Assembly (NCBI GenBank): GCA_019347855.1
Contig: JAHWKO010000012.1
Span: 1-36,976 of the forward strand
Direction of reading: 5' to 3'
DNA length: 36,976 nt
From: Actinomycetota bacterium
GTDB lineage: Bacteria > Actinomycetota > Nitriliruptoria > Nitriliruptorales > JAHWKO01
A model generated the notes under the pieces. It searched no databases. It had not been told where the DNA came from and saw only the letters and a program-made list of their open reading frames with translations. A program made the translations under genes and the position numbers. This document shows, piece after piece, positions 3,706 to 33,858 of the stretch. How positions within the stretch are numbered: position 1 is the stretch's first letter; every line of letters starts with the position of its first letter.

Positions 3706-4041
3706 TCAGCGGGACCCGTCGTGCTCCTGGCGACCGAAGGCGCGGCGGAGCTCGTCGAGGACGCGGGAGCCTCCACCGGACAGGTTGCGGATCGCCCCGA
3801 CCGCGGTCACCACGGAGGCGAGCATGAGGCCGAACCCGACCAGACCGAACACGAGGTTGAAGGTCAATCCGAGGAGCAGCACGATGCCCGCGACGAACCC
3901 CACCGCCGCCCACCGGAGCCGCCGGAGGTGGACCTTGACCGGGCTCTGGTTGCTGACGGTCGCGACGAACTGGGGGTCTTCCTCGGACAGGTGACGGGCG
4001 ATCTCCTCGAGCGCCCGTTCCTCGTGTTCCGACAGCGGCAT
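3706..4041 (-). CDS. DUF3040 family small membrane protein
   Basis: The 111-aa protein starts at ATG 4041, chosen because GAGGAG lies five bases upstream and because MPLSEHEERALEEI is the usual DUF3040 opening; a GTG six bases further up is also open. After an amphipathic N-terminus (LSEHEERALEEIARHL) come a basic stretch (HLRRLRW) and two hydrophobic helices (about residues 44-82), then a charged tail. DUF3040 is an actinobacterial membrane family of unknown function, often near division and cell-wall loci in other genomes. It converges on the transglutaminase gene with only 31 bases between the stops. A TATACT-like -10 lies about 70 bases upstream. Confidence 0.85.
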   Translation of the reverse strand: MPLSEHEERALEEIARHLSEEDPQFVATVSNQSPVKVHLRRLRWAAVGFVAGIVLLLGLTFNLVFGLVGFGLMLASVVTAVGAIRNLSGGGSRVLDELRRAFGRQEHDGSR

Positions 4042-5811: not shown

Positions 5812-7056
5812 TCAGCCGCCGTGGACGTCGTCGCGGTTCGGGGCGTCGTTGCCTGCACGGGGCGTGTCGTCGAGCAGCGCGCCGTAGGTCACCACCCGGT
5901 CGCCGAACCGTTCCTCGAGCCGGTCGGCGGTGCGTTCGGCGTCCTCCCAACGTCGGTCCGTGTCGAGCGCGAGCTGCCGGGCGGCCGACCCCTCGGTGAG
6001 GTTCGACACGCCGATCCCGAGCAGCCGGATCCTGGCCCGTTCGAGCCGGAGCTCGCGCAGTAGCTGGCCGGAGACCTCGACGAGGTCGTGCGTCCGGTCG
6101 GTCGGCAGCTCGAGGGTGGTCGAGCGGGTGATCGTCCGGAACGAGTCGAAGCGCACCTTGAGGGTCACGGTCCGCCCGGCGAGCTCCGCCGACCGCAGGC
6201 GACGGCCCACCTTCTCGGCAAGTCGCAGCAGCTCCCGGTGCATCTCGTCGGGGTCGTCGAGGTCCCGGTCGTAGGTCTCCTCGGCGGACAGGCTCTTGGC
6301 CGGTTCGTGCGGGACGACGCGGCGGCTGTCCTCCCCCCGAGCGAGCCGGTGCAGCTGCTGGCCGGTGGCCTCCCCCACGACGCGCTCGAGGGTCCGCGCG
6401 TCGCTGTCGGCGATCTGCCCGACGGTCCGGAACCCGTACCGGTGCAGCCGCTCGACGGTCTTCGGGCCCGCGCCCCACAGGTCCGACACCGGCAGGGGAC
6501 GCAGGAACCCCTCGACCTCGTCGCGCCTGAGGTGCAGCAGGCCGTCGGGCTTGGCCTTCCCGGAGCACAGCTTCGCGAGGTACTTGTTGGGCGCGACGCC
6601 GACCGAGCAGGGCAGCCCGGTCCGTTCGCGGACGTCAGCACGGATCCGGCGACCGATCTCGGGCGCCGGGCCGAACAGCCGGACCGAGCCGCTCACGTCG
6701 AGGAACGCCTCGTCCAGCGACAGCGGCTCGACGAGCGGGGTGTAGTCGATGAACACCTCCCGGACGGTGCGGGAGGCCTCGGTGTACCGGTCGAAGTCCG
6801 GGGGCACGACGACCAGATCGGCGCACAGCCGGCGGGCGCGAACCATCGGCATCGCCGAGTGGATACCGAAGCGGCGAGCCTCGTAGGACGCCGCGGCGAC
6901 CACGCCCCGACCCCCCTGGCCCCCGACCACCACGGGGCGCCCCTGCAGCGACGGATCGTCGCGCTGCTCCACCGAGGCGTAGAAGGCGTCCATGTCGACG
7001 TGGAGGATCGGTTCGTCGACCGGCTCATCGATCGGCTCATCGATCGGCTCAGGCAC
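5812..7056 (-). CDS. dinB: DNA polymerase IV (Y-family translesion polymerase)
   Basis: Pol IV is a low-fidelity Y-family polymerase that copies past damaged bases. The 414-aa protein starts at GTG 7056, with GAGG about four bases before it. The palm carboxylates are present: Asp21 in HVDMDAFYASVE, and Asp115/Glu116 in SLDEAFLDV. Also seen are SVGVAPNKYLAKL, the helix-hairpin-helix region around WGAGPKTVERL, and a little-finger domain with the DRDL/TVTLKVRF strands. The conserved domain begins only at about residue 17: the first 16 residues are a Pro-Glu-Asp-Ile tetrapeptide repeat encoded by a 12-bp tandem repeat. A LexA-type box lies about 45 bases upstream, so SOS induction is expected. 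It is separated from the dnaE2 block by four loci. Confidence 0.95.
   Translation of the reverse strand: MPEPIDEPIDEPVDEPILHVDMDAFYASVEQRDDPSLQGRPVVVGGQGGRGVVAAASYEARRFGIHSAMPMVRARRLCADLVVVPPDFDRYTEASRTVREVFIDYTPLVEPLSLDEAFLDVSGSVRLFGPAPEIGRRIRADVRERTGLPCSVGVAPNKYLAKLCSGKAKPDGLLHLRRDEVEGFLRPLPVSDLWGAGPKTVERLHRYGFRTVGQIADSDARTLERVVGEATGQQLHRLARGEDSRRVVPHEPAKSLSAEETYDRDLDDPDEMHRELLRLAEKVGRRLRSAELAGRTVTLKVRFDSFRTITRSTTLELPTDRTHDLVEVSGQLLRELRLERARIRLLGIGVSNLTEGSAARQLALDTDRRWEDAERTADRLEERFGDRVVTYGALLDDTPRAGNDAPNRDDVHGG
7009..7053. repeat. 12-bp tandem repeat at the 5' end of dinB
   Basis: Units CGGTTCGTCGAC (7009-7020), CGGCTCATCGAT (7021-7032), CGGCTCATCGAT (7033-7044) and a partial CGGCTCAGG (7045-7053) lie inside the dinB coding sequence. 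They encode a Glu-Pro-Ile/Val-Asp repeat before the conserved polymerase domain. Confidence 0.85.
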
Positions 7057-7888: not shown

Positions 7889-8324
7889 TGGACGACGGAC
7901 CCACGGGTGACCGGGCTGGACTTCTCGCAGCCCGCGATCGACGCCGCCCGCGAGCTGGCGGACGAGCTGGGGATCGAGGCCCGGTTCGAGACCGCCGACG
8001 TGTACGCCGCGCCGGACGTCCTCGGCGAACGACTAGTTCCACGGTCCCGAGCCGATGCGCTGGGAGGAGTCGGGTACCTACGCGGACGAGGACGCGCCCG
8101 CGGAGCACGACGTCACCTACGAGTGGAACCACGGGCTGGGCGAGGTCGTGACCGCACTCGTGTCGCGCGGGTTGCGGATCGGGTTCTTGCACGAGCACGA
8201 CTTCACGCTGTTCCCCCGCTGGCCGTCGCTCGAGCGGTCCGACGACGGCACCTACCGGCTCCCCGAGGGCCAGCCCAACCTGCCCCTGATCTACTCGCTG
8301 AAGGCCACGAAGCCGGGATCGTGA
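7888..8324 (+). pseudogene. Class I SAM-dependent methyltransferase remnant with two internal deletions
   Basis: The locus begins with ATG 7888 coupled to the VOC stop, but after four or five codons jumps to a piece that reads VTGLDFSQPAIDAARELADE in another frame. This is the SAM-binding motif I acidic strand and what follows, up to VLGERL (about 8033). It then jumps again, in a third frame, to FHGPEPMRWEESGTYAD and a normal C-terminal end (TYEWNHGLGEV ... LKATKPGS, stop 8322-8324). In full-length relatives a glycine-rich motif I strand precedes the first piece, and about 80-90 residues lie between the two pieces. Both are missing. The second junction falls at an ACTAGT hexamer (8031-8036). 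The product cannot be a working methyltransferase. Confidence 0.75.
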
Positions 8325-8363
8325 AGAGCTGCGGCGTCCTGGGGGGTGTATCTCTTCACGATC
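8317..8363. terminator. 12-bp inverted repeat overlapping both convergent stop codons
   Basis: GATCGTGAAGAG (8317-8328) and CTCTTCACGATC (8352-8363) are exact inverse complements with a 23-base loop. The stop codon of the methyltransferase remnant (8322-8324) and that of the minus-strand membrane gene (8356-8358) lie in opposite arms. This is a likely bidirectional terminator. Confidence 0.65.
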
Positions 8364-8667
8364 GCGGGGGGCGGCGGCGGGACCACCAACGCAGCCCGAG
8401 AGCCGCGAGTCCGGACAGCAGCGCCCCGGTCCCGCTGGCGATCCCCAGGAGCCCCACCCCGAGCGCCCTCATCCCCTCGGTCGAGGTGGTGGGGTCGGCG
8501 GAGTAGGCGACGACGAACAGCAGGCCGGCCACGAGGAAGCCGGCGAACGCGGACCAGGCGAACGGCACACCGGGGTCGGCTCGGTCGATGCCACGGATCG
8601 CGGCGACGACCGAGCCGGCCAGGGGCCACACCAGGAGCTGTCCGATCGGGAGCCAGAGACCATCCAC
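8356..8667 (-). CDS. Small hypothetical membrane protein
   Basis: A 103-aa protein from GTG 8667, with GAGGA about ten bases upstream. It is predicted to have three hydrophobic helices: about residues 5-24 (LPIGQLLVWPLAGSVVAAI), 36-56 (AFAGFLVAGLLFVVAYSA) and 68-92, ending in a basic RWWSRRRPPRS tail. I do not recognise the family. It lies between dnaE2, whose stop is at 8709, and the methyltransferase remnant, on the same strand as dnaE2. Support for being real comes from the ribosome-binding site, the clean membrane topology and the terminator-like repeat at its end. No function can be assigned. Confidence 0.5.
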   Translation of the reverse strand: MDGLWLPIGQLLVWPLAGSVVAAIRGIDRADPGVPFAWSAFAGFLVAGLLFVVAYSADPTTSTEGMRALGVGLLGIASGTGALLSGLAALGLRWWSRRRPPRS

Positions 8668-8708: not shown

Positions 8709-11700
8709 TCAGCGGCTGCCCGAGGCGAACATCGCAGCCGAGAGCCCCGCGGGACGTCGCTCCGCACGGCGGTGGGGCGCCGGTGGGCCGCGCCGGGCCA
8801 GAGCGGCATCGAGCTGCCCCCTTCCCCAGGCTCGCCACAGCTCGCTCAGGTCCCAGGCCCGCTCGGCGAGGATCGACGCGCCCCGCGGGCCGCTGCGGCG
8901 CAACCGCCCCTCGACGACGACCAACCAGCTGTTCAGCACCGTCCAGGCCTCGGTACCCAGGACCGACTCGAAGAAGTTGCACTGGGTGGTCCCGGTGCGG
9001 TCGTCCAGCGAGAGGAACAGCACCCGCTGCCCAGACCGGACCGGCGGCGACTGGAGGGCGACCCGCACCCCAGCGACGCGCACGACCTCCCCGTCGTGAC
9101 GTCCGAGGAGCTGGTACGCGCGGGTGACGCCGAGCACCTCGAACAACGGCTCGTAGAACGCCACCACGTGCCTGGACCAGTCCAGCTCCAGCACCTCGAG
9201 CTCGTCGCGGACCGCCTCGGCATCGGTGGGGGGCGGCAGCTGCGGCTCGTGGTCGGCGTGCAGATCGAGGCTGGTCTGGTGGACCTCGACGTCGCCCCCA
9301 CCGCCCGCCCGGGACCCCTGGCCACCCGCCCGCAGGGTCCGCCGCGTCCCGGCCCACAGCTCCTCGACCGCCAGCATCGTGCGCCGTCGGTCGGGGCCGT
9401 GCGGGGACAGCGCGTCCAACGCCCCGGCCTTGCAGAGGTTCTCGGCGGTGAGGCGCGACAGCCCGCCCCGCACCCGCAGGTCCTCCAACGAGGTGTAGGC
9501 ACGCCCCGTCAGGAGCCGCTCCCGCTCGACCTCGCTCATGGCCTTGACGTCCTGCAGGCCGACCCGCACCGCCCACCGCATCGCGACCCCCTCCGCCCCG
9601 ACCTCGTCCGCCCCGAGGTCCCACCCCGACGGCGGGACCACCCGCTCGTGAACCCCGAACGCCACATGTGGCGCTGACGGTTCACAAGGGGGGCTGGATA
9701 GCCCGTGCTGCCCCTGCCTGTGAACCGGGAGCGCCACATGTGGCGCTGACGGTTCACAGGTCCAGCCGGGGGGTGGGTCCCCACGAGGGCGGACACCGAG
9801 CGACGCCAGCGCGACCGGGGCGGGGACGCGCTCGACCGTGTACTCCGACCGCGAGACGTTCACGTCCGGGCCGAGCACCGCGATGCCGAACTGGCGAGCC
9901 TCGTCCAGGATCAGCCGTCGCGGGTACATCCCGGGGTCGTGGGTCAGCAGTCCGGCGACGAGCTCGGGTAGCAGGTGCACCTTCATCCACGCCGACCGGT
10001 AGGTGGGCACCGCGAACGCCGCCGCGTGGGCCTTGCAGAAGCCGAACGACGCGAACGACGCGACCTGCTTCCAGATGGCCTCGGCGGTCGCCCGGTCGAA
10101 CCCACGCTCGCGCGCCCGGTTCAGCGCCCACACCCGCCGGGCGGCCAGCTTCCCCTCGTCGGCGAGCTCGCGGCGGACCAGGTCGGCGTAGGCCAGGTCG
10201 CACCCGGTCAGCGCGGCGACCACCTCCATGACCTGCTCGTGGTAGACCACCACGCCGAAGGTCTCGCCCAGGACCGGCTCCAGCAACGGGTGCAGGATCT
10301 CGCCCTGCTCCTCCCCGGTGCGGCGGGCCACGAACGGGCCGACCATGTCCGCCTTCACCGGTCCCGGCCGGAACAGCGAGATCTCGGTGATGAGGTCCCC
10401 GAACGTGTCGGGCTGCAGCCGCCCCAGCAGCTCGCGCTGCCCCGGCGATTCGACCTGGAACACGCCCACCGACCGTGTGGACCGCAGCAGCTCGTAGGTG
10501 CCCGGGTCGTCGTCGCCGATGTCCTCGACGGTGAGCTCGCGACCACGGGTCTCCTGGGTGAGGTCCAACGCGTGACGCATCGCGGACAGCAGCCGCACCG
10601 CCAGCACGTCGAGCTTCAACAACCCCAGTGCGGCGACGTCGTCCTTGTCGAACTGCACCATCGAGAACCCGTTGGCGGAGCGCTCGACCGGGGCGCGGTC
10701 CAGCAGCTCCCCATCCCCCAGCACGATCCCGCACGGGTGCAGCGCCAGGTGGCGGGGGAACCCGTCGATGCGCTCGACCACCTGGAACAGCATCTCGAGC
10801 TGGCCGGCGTCCAGTCGCGTCCCGGCGAGCTCTGGCAGCTCGCGCATCGCCGCCCGGATGTCGCGAGCGCGGACCTGCCGGAACGCCTTGGCGATCAGGT
10901 TGATCTCCTCGGGGGGCAGCCCCAGGACCTTGCCGGTCTCGCGCACCGCCATCCGCGCCTGGAAGGTCTCGACCATCGCGACGCACGCGGTGCGCTCGTC
11001 GCCGTAGCGACCCATCACCATCCGGTAGACGTCCTCGCGGCGGGCCGATTCCACGTCGATGTCGATGTCGGGCAGCTCGTCCCGGTAGGGGTTCATGAAC
11101 CGTTCGAACAGCAACCCGTGCGCCACAGGATCGACGTCGGAGATGCGCAGCGCGTAGCAGATCAGGCTGCCGGCAGCGGACCCCCGGCAGGCCGTGAGGA
11201 TCCCGGCATCGCGGATGTCCCGCACGATCTCGGCGACCGCCAGGAAGTAGTCGTGGAGCCCCAGCTGGTCGACCATCGCGAGCTCGGCCACCAGCCGGTC
11301 CGACACCTCCGGCCCGGGTCGGTCGTAGCGCTCCCGGACACCAGTCCGGCAGCGGGCGTGGAGCTCGCGGCGTGCCTCGACGTCATCGAGGCCGGTCAGG
11401 CGCGGAGCGTGGGGCCCCGCGTGCAGCCCTAGGTCGACCTCGCAGGACCCCGCGACCCGCTGGGCGTTGCGCAGCAGGTCTGGGCGGTCCCGGAACCGCG
11501 GGATCGTCAGCAGGTCATCGGCGGTCTTGAGCCAACCCTCGGCGGTGGACCGGTCGAGGTGGTGGCCGGCCACCGGCACCTGGGCCCGCACGCAGGCCAT
11601 GACGTCCGCGAGGTAGGCGTCCCGCTCACGGAGGTAGCGCACGTCGTTCACGGCCACCGCGGTGAGCCCGAGCCGGTCTGCCAGCGCCACGGTCCGGGAC

Positions 11701-12320
11701 GCGGCCAGGTCCTCGGCGAGCCCGGACCGGTGATCACGGACCGCGAGCAGCACCTGGTCCGCACCGCACGCTCCGACCCAGCGGACCACCTCGGCCTCCG
11801 CTGCCTGGGTCGCTCCGTCCGCCAGCAACCGCCCCACCGGCGAGTCCACCCCCAGCAGGACGTAGCGCCCCTCGGGGTGGACGGTCGCGTCCTCCCAGGT
11901 CAGGTGCGGATCGGACCGTTGATCCCGGTGAGCGGCCGACACCGTCCGGCACAGCCCGCCGTACCCCCGCTGGGTCCGGGCCAGGAAGGTGATCCGCGGA
12001 GCGTCGCCCTCGAGCCACGCCGGCCCCACCGCCGGCCGGGACTCCCACTCGCGTCGGACCCGCCCACCTCGGGAGCTCCCCCAGCCGGGCCGGTCGGGGT
12101 CAGGTTCCAGCGCCAGGTCGGCGCCGAACACCGGAGTGACGCCGGTGGCTGCGCAGGCCTGGGCCACCCGCACCGCCCCGTACAGCCCGTCGCGGTCGGT
12201 CACGGCGACGTGGCTCATGCCAGCCTCTGCCGCAGCCACCGCCAGCTCCCGAGGTCGGATCGTGCCATCCCGTAGGGAGTAGCTGGTCCGCACCGACAGG
12301 TGCGCGAACGGGACCGTCAT
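8709..12320 (-). CDS. dnaE2: Error-prone DNA polymerase III alpha (DnaE2), with in-frame palindromic insertion
   Basis: DnaE2 is the C-family polymerase of damage-induced mutagenesis. The 1203-aa protein starts at ATG 12320 with GAGGTGG six bases upstream. An N-terminal PHP domain keeps His7 (FAHLSVRTSYSLRDG), but the two other His of the usual HLHVHS motif are replaced, so metal-dependent exonuclease activity there is unlikely. The palm Asp420 and Asp422 are present in PDIDIDVE, with LLKLDVLAVR, the KAHAAAFAVPTYRSAWMK fingers segment, and a C-terminal OB fold (VVRVAGVRVALQSPP to CNFFESV). Between SEYTVE and RVGLQDVK there is an extra stretch of about 60-75 residues containing CEPSAPHVA twice (855-863 and 879-887), encoded by two palindromic repeats. 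DnaE2 proteins are usually about 1050-1100 aa. A LexA box lies upstream; imuA'/imuB are not in the window. Confidence 0.93.
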   Translation of the reverse strand: MTVPFAHLSVRTSYSLRDGTIRPRELAVAAAEAGMSHVAVTDRDGLYGAVRVAQACAATGVTPVFGADLALEPDPDRPGWGSSRGGRVRREWESRPAVGPAWLEGDAPRITFLARTQRGYGGLCRTVSAAHRDQRSDPHLTWEDATVHPEGRYVLLGVDSPVGRLLADGATQAAEAEVVRWVGACGADQVLLAVRDHRSGLAEDLAASRTVALADRLGLTAVAVNDVRYLRERDAYLADVMACVRAQVPVAGHHLDRSTAEGWLKTADDLLTIPRFRDRPDLLRNAQRVAGSCEVDLGLHAGPHAPRLTGLDDVEARRELHARCRTGVRERYDRPGPEVSDRLVAELAMVDQLGLHDYFLAVAEIVRDIRDAGILTACRGSAAGSLICYALRISDVDPVAHGLLFERFMNPYRDELPDIDIDVESARREDVYRMVMGRYGDERTACVAMVETFQARMAVRETGKVLGLPPEEINLIAKAFRQVRARDIRAAMRELPELAGTRLDAGQLEMLFQVVERIDGFPRHLALHPCGIVLGDGELLDRAPVERSANGFSMVQFDKDDVAALGLLKLDVLAVRLLSAMRHALDLTQETRGRELTVEDIGDDDPGTYELLRSTRSVGVFQVESPGQRELLGRLQPDTFGDLITEISLFRPGPVKADMVGPFVARRTGEEQGEILHPLLEPVLGETFGVVVYHEQVMEVVAALTGCDLAYADLVRRELADEGKLAARRVWALNRARERGFDRATAEAIWKQVASFASFGFCKAHAAAFAVPTYRSAWMKVHLLPELVAGLLTHDPGMYPRRLILDEARQFGIAVLGPDVNVSRSEYTVERVPAPVALASLGVRPRGDPPPGWTCEPSAPHVALPVHRQGQHGLSSPPCEPSAPHVAFGVHERVVPPSGWDLGADEVGAEGVAMRWAVRVGLQDVKAMSEVERERLLTGRAYTSLEDLRVRGGLSRLTAENLCKAGALDALSPHGPDRRRTMLAVEELWAGTRRTLRAGGQGSRAGGGGDVEVHQTSLDLHADHEPQLPPPTDAEAVRDELEVLELDWSRHVVAFYEPLFEVLGVTRAYQLLGRHDGEVVRVAGVRVALQSPPVRSGQRVLFLSLDDRTGTTQCNFFESVLGTEAWTVLNSWLVVVEGRLRRSGPRGASILAERAWDLSELWRAWGRGQLDAALARRGPPAPHRRAERRPAGLSAAMFASGSR
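9648..9686. repeat. Palindromic repeat element, copy 1 (inside dnaE2)
   Basis: GTGAACC (9648-9654) pairs with GGTTCAC (9679-9685), and the centre CGCCACATGTGGCG (9660-9673) is a perfect palindrome. On the coding strand it reads in frame as CEPSAPHVAFGVHE. It lies 71-72 bases from copy 2 in the same orientation. Confidence 0.85.
9719..9758. repeat. Palindromic repeat element, copy 2 (inside dnaE2)
   Basis: TGTGAACCG (9719-9727) and CGGTTCACA (9750-9758) are exact inverse complements, flanking three bases on each side of GCGCCACATGTGGCGC (9731-9746), itself a perfect palindrome. On the coding strand it reads in frame as CEPSAPHVALPVHR. It differs from copy 1 only in the left arm and in three to four bases beside the core. 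Confidence 0.88.
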
Positions 12321-14007: not shown

Positions 14008-14023
14008 CCGAACGTACGTTCGG
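14008..14023. promoter_or_regulatory. LexA (SOS) box upstream of the DUF6504 gene
   Basis: CCGAACGTACGTTCGG is a perfect 16-bp palindrome containing GAAC-GTAC-GTTC, the LexA core. It is about 55 bases before the GTG at 13959. The same CGAACGTACGTTCG core occurs upstream of dnaE2. Confidence 0.82.
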
Positions 14024-14032
14024 ACACACCGA

Positions 14033-14045
14033 CGAACGTACGTCA
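14033..14045. promoter_or_regulatory. Second, weaker LexA-like site
   Basis: CGAACGTACGTCA repeats the left half and spacer of the neighbouring LexA box but ends GTCA instead of GTTC. Its centre is 24 bp from the centre of the first box, so cooperative binding is conceivable. Confidence 0.4.
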
Positions 14046-23155: not shown

Positions 23156-23181
23156 GAGCCCCGGGGAGGACCCCGGGGCTC
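23156..23181 (+). terminator. Attenuator hairpin before DAHP synthase
   Basis: GAGCCCCGGGG (23156-23166), loop AGGA, CCCCGGGGCTC (23171-23181): an 11-bp perfect stem. The run CCCCGGG at 23102-23108, inside the leader coding sequence, could pair with CCCGGGG (23160-23166) as a competing fold. There is no long T-tract after the stem (TCATCGTT). Confidence 0.7.
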
Positions 23182-33732: not shown

Positions 33733-33762
33733 GTCGTAGGTTACGCAACCGTAACCTACGAC
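33733..33762. promoter_or_regulatory. 30-bp perfect operator for the desaturase-tetR operon
   Basis: GTCGTAGGTTACG (33733-33745), CAAC, CGTAACCTACGAC (33750-33762): 13-bp arms without mismatch. A further half-site, CGTAGGTTGCG (33765-33775), follows directly. It is 43 bases upstream of the desaturase ATG. Length and symmetry fit a TetR dimer or pair of dimers, the obvious candidate being the TetR protein of the same operon. Confidence 0.8.
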
Positions 33763-33821
33763 AGCGTAGGTTGCGAACGGCCGGTGGTCCCGGCCCCCGT
33801 GGGCACGTCCACTGCCGCGAG

Positions 33822-33839
33822 GGTCCGGATATCCGGACC
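33822..33839. promoter_or_regulatory. 18-bp perfect palindrome between acyltransferase and desaturase
   Basis: GGTCCGGAT/ATCCGGACC. It lies 20 bases after the acyltransferase stop and about 130 bases upstream of the desaturase start. As RNA it would give a 7-bp stem with a four-base loop, so either a terminator for the acyltransferase or a second operator. Confidence 0.45.
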
Positions 33840-33858
33840 GTGGCGGCACTCGACGTGG

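Follow-up and report, generated by a model that had tools for sequence, protein, structure and literature searches.

Palindromic DNA that codes for protein is best known from Rickettsia, an alphaproteobacterium, and from the REPs of some other bacteria. Rickettsia palindromic elements (RPEs) are translated in frame inside conserved proteins, and a guanylate kinase (gmk) that carries one stayed active with its affinity for substrate altered, as told in passages of PMC2229807 and PMC6649704. REPs are portrayed in parts of PMC3733652 as palindromes of 20 to 40 bp, tagged by GTAG or CGTC, often arranged as dimers 20 to 100 bp apart and lying mostly between genes, and their ends can supply the stop codons of neighboring genes. 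The same sections describe (in 2013) REP palindromes inside ORFs. Dimers or groups make up over half of these inserts, and many of the tagged host genes serve DNA synthesis or repair, DnaE2 genes being named among them (PMC3733652).

The window, by which we mean the whole 36,976-nucleotide stretch of DNA that was analyzed, holds two palindromic elements inside a gene of this same kind. We think it likely that they are a tandem pair, or dimer, of a short palindromic repeat resembling REPs or RPEs, set in an exposed loop of DnaE2, retained since the reading frame was kept. The gene, dnaE2 (8709..12320, minus strand), encodes an intact error-prone DNA polymerase alpha-type subunit of 1203 residues and houses both elements. 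Among NCBIfam models it matches PRK05672 (error-prone DNA polymerase) best, at 710 bits under a cut-off of 939 bits, and the product passes the polymerase III alpha superfamily model (563 vs 434 bits). Pfam recognizes PHP, polymerase, finger, HHH_6 and OB domains, and Foldseek returned DnaE-type polymerases at large rmsd. The host had been taken for an actinobacterium, and the nearest named relatives, among the best 120 of 5608 proteins, are indeed Nitriliruptorales. A plasmid search found DnaE relatives, none above 60% identity, and a phage search gave chance-like matches only. Near dnaE2 on the same strand is a gene for a Y-family (IMS) polymerase (5812-7056), a possible partner in mutagenic repair.

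Each element is a two-step palindrome of 38 bp with the pattern GTGAACC-N5-CGCCACATGTGGCG-N5-GGTTCAC. The pattern is matched with 0 mismatches at 9648-9685 and at 9720-9757, and 100 shuffles of the window gave 0 matches; the exact CGCCACATGTGGCG core occurs in the window at these two sites only. Both copies are listed on the plus strand, in the direct orientation first reported for them and offset by 72 nt, or 24 codons. Read on the minus strand, the copy that comes first in the protein (9720..9757) encodes CEPSAPHVALPVH and the second (9648..9685) encodes CEPSAPHVAFGVH. The 34-nt spacer between them (9686..9719, minus strand) encodes about RQGQHGLSSPP. The entire loop insert spans 9639..9761 on the minus strand, residues 854-894, and is predicted to be disordered, with confidence lowest at 862-881. 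As the earlier note had it, the frame stays open through both elements, and the peptide CEPSAPHVA appears from residues 855 and 879 of the 1203-residue product. Through each copy two of the three minus-strand frames and one of the three plus-strand frames are open, so insertion of such DNA into a coding sequence would be survivable at times. An Rfam search matched nothing. A CRISPR-like reading, with a 38-nt repeat and a 34-nt spacer, was discarded, since this DNA is translated as part of a conserved gene.

The window contains other palindromes. An interrupted one of 54 bp lies outside predicted genes at 33804-33857, with the center GGTCCGGATATCCGGACC, and another, GTCGTAGGTTACG...CGTAACCTACGAC, is found about 40 bp from it at 33733-33762. 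A palindrome with arms GATCGTGAAGAG/CTCTTCACGATC at 8313-8367 overlaps the end of a small predicted plus-strand ORF, and ACGTACGTTCG...CGAACGTACGT at 14012-14043 is outside predicted genes. At 23156-23181 a terminator-like hairpin, GAGCCCCGGGG...CCCCGGGGCTC, stands directly ahead of a DAHP synthase gene.

How close are these elements to the systems already described? The likeness to the Rickettsia elements that had been drawn is apt as to layout, since the palindromes lie in frame inside a conserved protein gene. RPEs measure 105-146 bp in the part of PMC2229807 that gives their length, against 38 bp for the window's unit and 110 bp for its pair. Set beside the REPs as characterized in sections of PMC3733652, the 38-bp elements fall within the 20-40 bp palindrome range, and their dimer spacing (34 bp in the window, 33 bp in G048, the one other genome found to hold the motif) falls within 20-100 bp, the head-to-tail orientation of the partners being the rare type. 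There is no GTAG in or beside any copy in the window or in G048. On the minus strand both window copies do have a CGTC, placed between arm and core, where it is terminal only if the inner stem alone is counted, and it is absent from both G048 copies. The window's motif forms a single pair in G048; other palindrome families of its relatives occupy 4-15 places. REPs of the GTAG type go with the RAYT tyrosine transposase, which is nearly absent in the window's class. The RAYT domain, Y1_Tnp (PF01797), was found in one of 66 class genomes (G016), as a partial match to profile positions 64-121 of 121, and its rarity counts against the repeat-element reading, which would call for a mobilizing enzyme. 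The main text of PMC3733652 is without the words Actinobacteria, actinomycet- or Streptomyces.

Measured between the conserved flanks, the linkers of the best 120 of 5608 proteins (the window's protein counted among them) span 17 to 127 residues with a median of 75; the window has 101, and nine homologues have longer ones. Several of those nine are without any known palindrome, which counts against the repeat-element reading. A narrower measure sets the window apart. From PGW to PPxxxD it has 42 residues, the longest distance among the 105 parsed proteins of the best 120, whose median is 10; by the rules of the script two proteins whose linkers are longer, P0117 and P0005 (a partial protein), are among the 15 unparsed ones. 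The claim of an insert where relatives have a short linker therefore stands for the PGW-PPxxxD segment and fails for the linker from flank to flank, which is not uniformly short. The 60-75 added residues first proposed were too many, the excess from PGW to PPxxxD being only about 32 among the 105 parsed proteins. That excess is about the length of the element pair, so the loop excess matches the pair. The relatives viewed, G048 among them, are without the window's insert, as had been supposed.

The HHH_6 match in the window's DnaE2 begins at residue 915, which corresponds to profile position 20, and so places the insert in the turn that precedes most of the domain. Residues 700-1130 were modeled with AlphaFold from 60 sequences; the mean pLDDT is 80, falling under 50 in mid-insert, at residues 862-881, and on this prediction we read the loop as probably disordered and exposed. 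Most likely it is an extension, clade-specific and variable in length, of the turn at the start of HHH_6, in which 30-odd extra residues, probably disordered, are tolerated. The DnaE2 linker of one relative, G027, consists in part of a short tandem repeat of GGGGAACCTGACCT-like units with no strong palindrome (L060, about 3900-4030).

Is the window alone in having palindromes at this spot? A survey of the loop took in 51 stretches, namely the window, 30 loci and a further 20 loci. Both flanks were located in 44 of them, giving 43 loops (G025 counted once), the window's and those of 42 of the 66 class genomes, which are in part fragmentary; five stretches had the left flank only, and two, fetched for other reasons, had neither. 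For each loop the best inverted repeat was scored against 707 control segments of equal length, drawn upstream and downstream from dnaE2 and adjoining DNA and not from the loops of other genes. A score of at least 13 was reached by 4 of 43 loops and by 0 of 707 controls. At 12 or above the contrast shrinks (5 of 43 loops, 6 of 707 controls), and the counts are 7 of 43 and 12 of 707 at a score of 11, and 10 of 43 and 33 of 707 at a score of 10. With the window excluded, as it was chosen beforehand, 3 of 42 loops score at least 13 (Fisher p 1.6e-4) and 4 of 42 at least 12 (p 1.4e-3); these values treat related genomes as independent of shared ancestry, and the cut-off of 13 was fixed after the scores were seen. 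Against these controls strong palindromes are commoner in the loop than in the remainder of dnaE2, a comparison within the gene and not with other genes.

Besides the window, the loops that score at least 13 are those of G033, G011 and G009, and G012 stands at 12. The palindromes of G009 and G011 have common GTCGACYGA arms at the same point of the loop and, to judge from that agreement, may stem from one event or origin. In G009, G011 and G033 no stops were reported in the matches, and a single long open frame contains the loop palindromes. The dnaE2 of G012 is not one continuous frame as assembled, so G012 shows insertion and not in-frame insertion. The loop thus has the look of a site where palindromic DNA has landed, or grown, more than once.

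Landing and growth are different things. The elements could have arisen on the spot, by replication slippage and template switching in a freely varying linker, without any mobile element, and a linker that ranges from 17 to 127 residues in the best 120 of 5608 proteins would suit such an origin. Two loops suit it as well. That of G033 holds three tandem 60-bp units with a palindrome in each, and that of G007 three tandem units with a weaker palindrome; the linker of P0005 has one G033-like unit and that of P0117 has two G007-like units. The exact G033 pattern occurs in dnaE2 and nowhere else, and the G007 unit at one further place only, with 3 mismatches, and for these two local growth fits better. 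As the source of the window's pair we nevertheless consider local origin unlikely, because the window's motif recurs at an unrelated site in G048, and because the loop palindromes of G009, G011 and G012 have sister copies elsewhere in their own genomes. Both observations we count for origin from a repeat family.

The sister copies deserve a closer description. One member of each of the G009, G011 and G012 families sits in the DnaE2 loop where the window has its pair, with arm sequences unlike the window's. The G012 palindrome occupies 15 places in G012, 10 in G007, 9 in G008 and 1 in G013; the remaining 62 class genomes have none. Of these 35 places 31 were examined, with genes called from codon composition only: 23 are intergenic with respect to the predicted genes, 6 lie across a predicted gene edge (one of them that of dnaE2) and 2 lie inside a called ORF. 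The first of these two is ahead of a sub-threshold AbiEi_4 match, 107 codons past the called start. The second, a copy of this AGAAGGG/AGCAGGG palindrome family at 2001-2036 of L180 (G012), lies near the C-terminus of an ORF for a YchF-type GTPase, in the tail past the recognized domain. Counting the dnaE2 copy in each, the G011 palindrome is found at 7 places in G011 and the G009 palindrome at 4 in G009; the noise of this pattern search shows in single matches in G049 and in G062 and in single control matches in G004 and in G066. Of those 11 places the two in dnaE2 alone are well inside predicted genes, and the rest are intergenic or towards the end of a predicted gene. Covariation in the inner helix of the G011 family was not above that of shuffles, which counts against the repeat-element reading, and 9 of 10 outer-arm pairs are fixed by the search pattern and so uninformative.

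The window's own motif was expected to turn up elsewhere, and it does, sparingly. With up to 3 mismatches it is found in one of the 66 genomes of the class (that of G001, a Nitriliruptorales bacterium) and in one of 396 genomes of the phylum, a draw that takes in class members; the genome is G048 both times. There it forms a tandem pair with 2 mismatches, the copies 71 bp apart with 33 bp between them. On one side of the pair is a gene for an alpha/beta hydrolase and on the other the 3' end of a gene for a type I phosphodiesterase, the stop codon of which falls within the second copy. The dnaE2 loop of G048 is without the motif. This is the only pair in 4.9 Mb of G048, which counts against a dispersed repeat family, and a DNA search of that genome with the pair region gave no second good match. 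The exact 22-base pattern had 0 matches in genome_contigs and the 24-base form 0 in viral_contigs, both being patterns that the G048 copies, which differ, would escape. A strict scan for two-step palindromes, run over 397 kb of G048, 400 kb of G033 and 101 other loci, gave 0, 1 (shuffled mean 0.2) and 3 respectively; it missed the known G048 pair within the sequence scanned, and so is insensitive. In the window's own genome the motif would, on the repeat-element reading, be dispersed.

A covariance model, R1, made from the window and G048 copies, reaches further, with E-values that are rough. At E 0.1 or better it matches in 8 of the 66 class genomes. Ten places were viewed (E 2.6e-4 to 0.055 per genome, again rough), all two-step palindromes with a window-like core: three in G001 with arms GTGCACC/GGTGCAC, three in G009 with arms ending TGAAG/CTTCA or similar, and four in G011 with arms TGAAC/GTTCA. 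The arms thus differ from those of the window, and the ACATGT center of its core is present in several of the ten. By locus, L082, L085, L086, L087 and L089 are two-step palindromes, and the arms are weaker in L077 and L078. A search of five genomes with a laxer filter gave 5 distinct places in G001, 5 in G009, 6 in G011, 4 in G048 and 2 in G031, the weaker ones not viewed. In the dnaE2 loops of G001, G009 and G011 no copies of the window's layout were seen. The common core with differing arms suggests that the window's motif may be one of several related families. R1 also led to a GGGGAGCG-armed palindrome with the center CCACATGTGG around 1501-1544 of L083 (G031), with a second GGGGAGCG...CTCCCC copy directly downstream.

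The reading we favor, a dimer of a short palindromic repeat kept for its open frame, would then run as follows. The repeat would have entered the loop, or been duplicated within it. Several short palindromic repeat families of the class would reach this loop, where added residues do no harm; copies that broke the frame would be lost, those that kept it would persist, and tandem duplication would add copies, as may have happened in the window, G048, G033 and G007. We infer the mobility of the elements, their neutrality and this order of events.

Neutrality has its counterpart in an idea that we consider unlikely. The loop might be a selected landing pad, in which different palindromes are captured time and again because a structured, elongating insert in an SOS polymerase is favored, whether for slower translation or for a longer flexible loop; the capture of REPs by repair polymerases would then be a cross-phylum pattern and no accident. 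A further proposal, very improbable in our estimation, is that the hairpins regulate dnaE2, mRNA structure slowing ribosomes or recruiting RNases and so limiting a mutagenic polymerase. The predicted RNA fold of the pair is very stable (-83.4 kcal/mol, z -8.2; the copies singly give -33.3 and -35.0 kcal/mol, z -5.2 and -6.0), and structured inserts recur in this one gene in the loop survey. Yet 39 of 43 loops score below 13, and both the sequence and the place of the hairpin vary between the genomes that have one, G009 and G011 excepted. That the inserted peptide itself works in the protein, for example by binding a mutasome partner, is scarcely credible: the repeat does have 9 identical residues, but their identity follows from the DNA palindrome, the G048 motif is not inside a gene, the insert is predicted to be disordered, and two word-based searches of 5.8 billion sequences (lengths about 660-2100 and 165-525 residues, shared 5-residue words required) found no related peptide in other proteins.

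What is new in the favored reading, a palindromic repeat pair retained in frame, is not its kind. REPs in DnaE2 genes are in print for other bacteria, in the relevant parts of PMC3733652. The novelty lies in the lineage, in the sequences and in the recurrence at a single loop, none of which was met in searches of the open-licence literature; among the papers listed there for Nitriliruptor palindromes, for REPs in Actinobacteria and for palindromes in DnaE2, nothing was nearer than PMC3733652. Several palindrome families are present in one actinobacterial class, and a single loop of a single error-prone polymerase carries different ones of them. Set beside the REPs already described in DnaE2 genes elsewhere, this frames a question that can be put to the test: are genes of mutagenesis and repair hit by such palindromes, or do they keep them, more often than others, and does the insert alter the polymerase that carries it?
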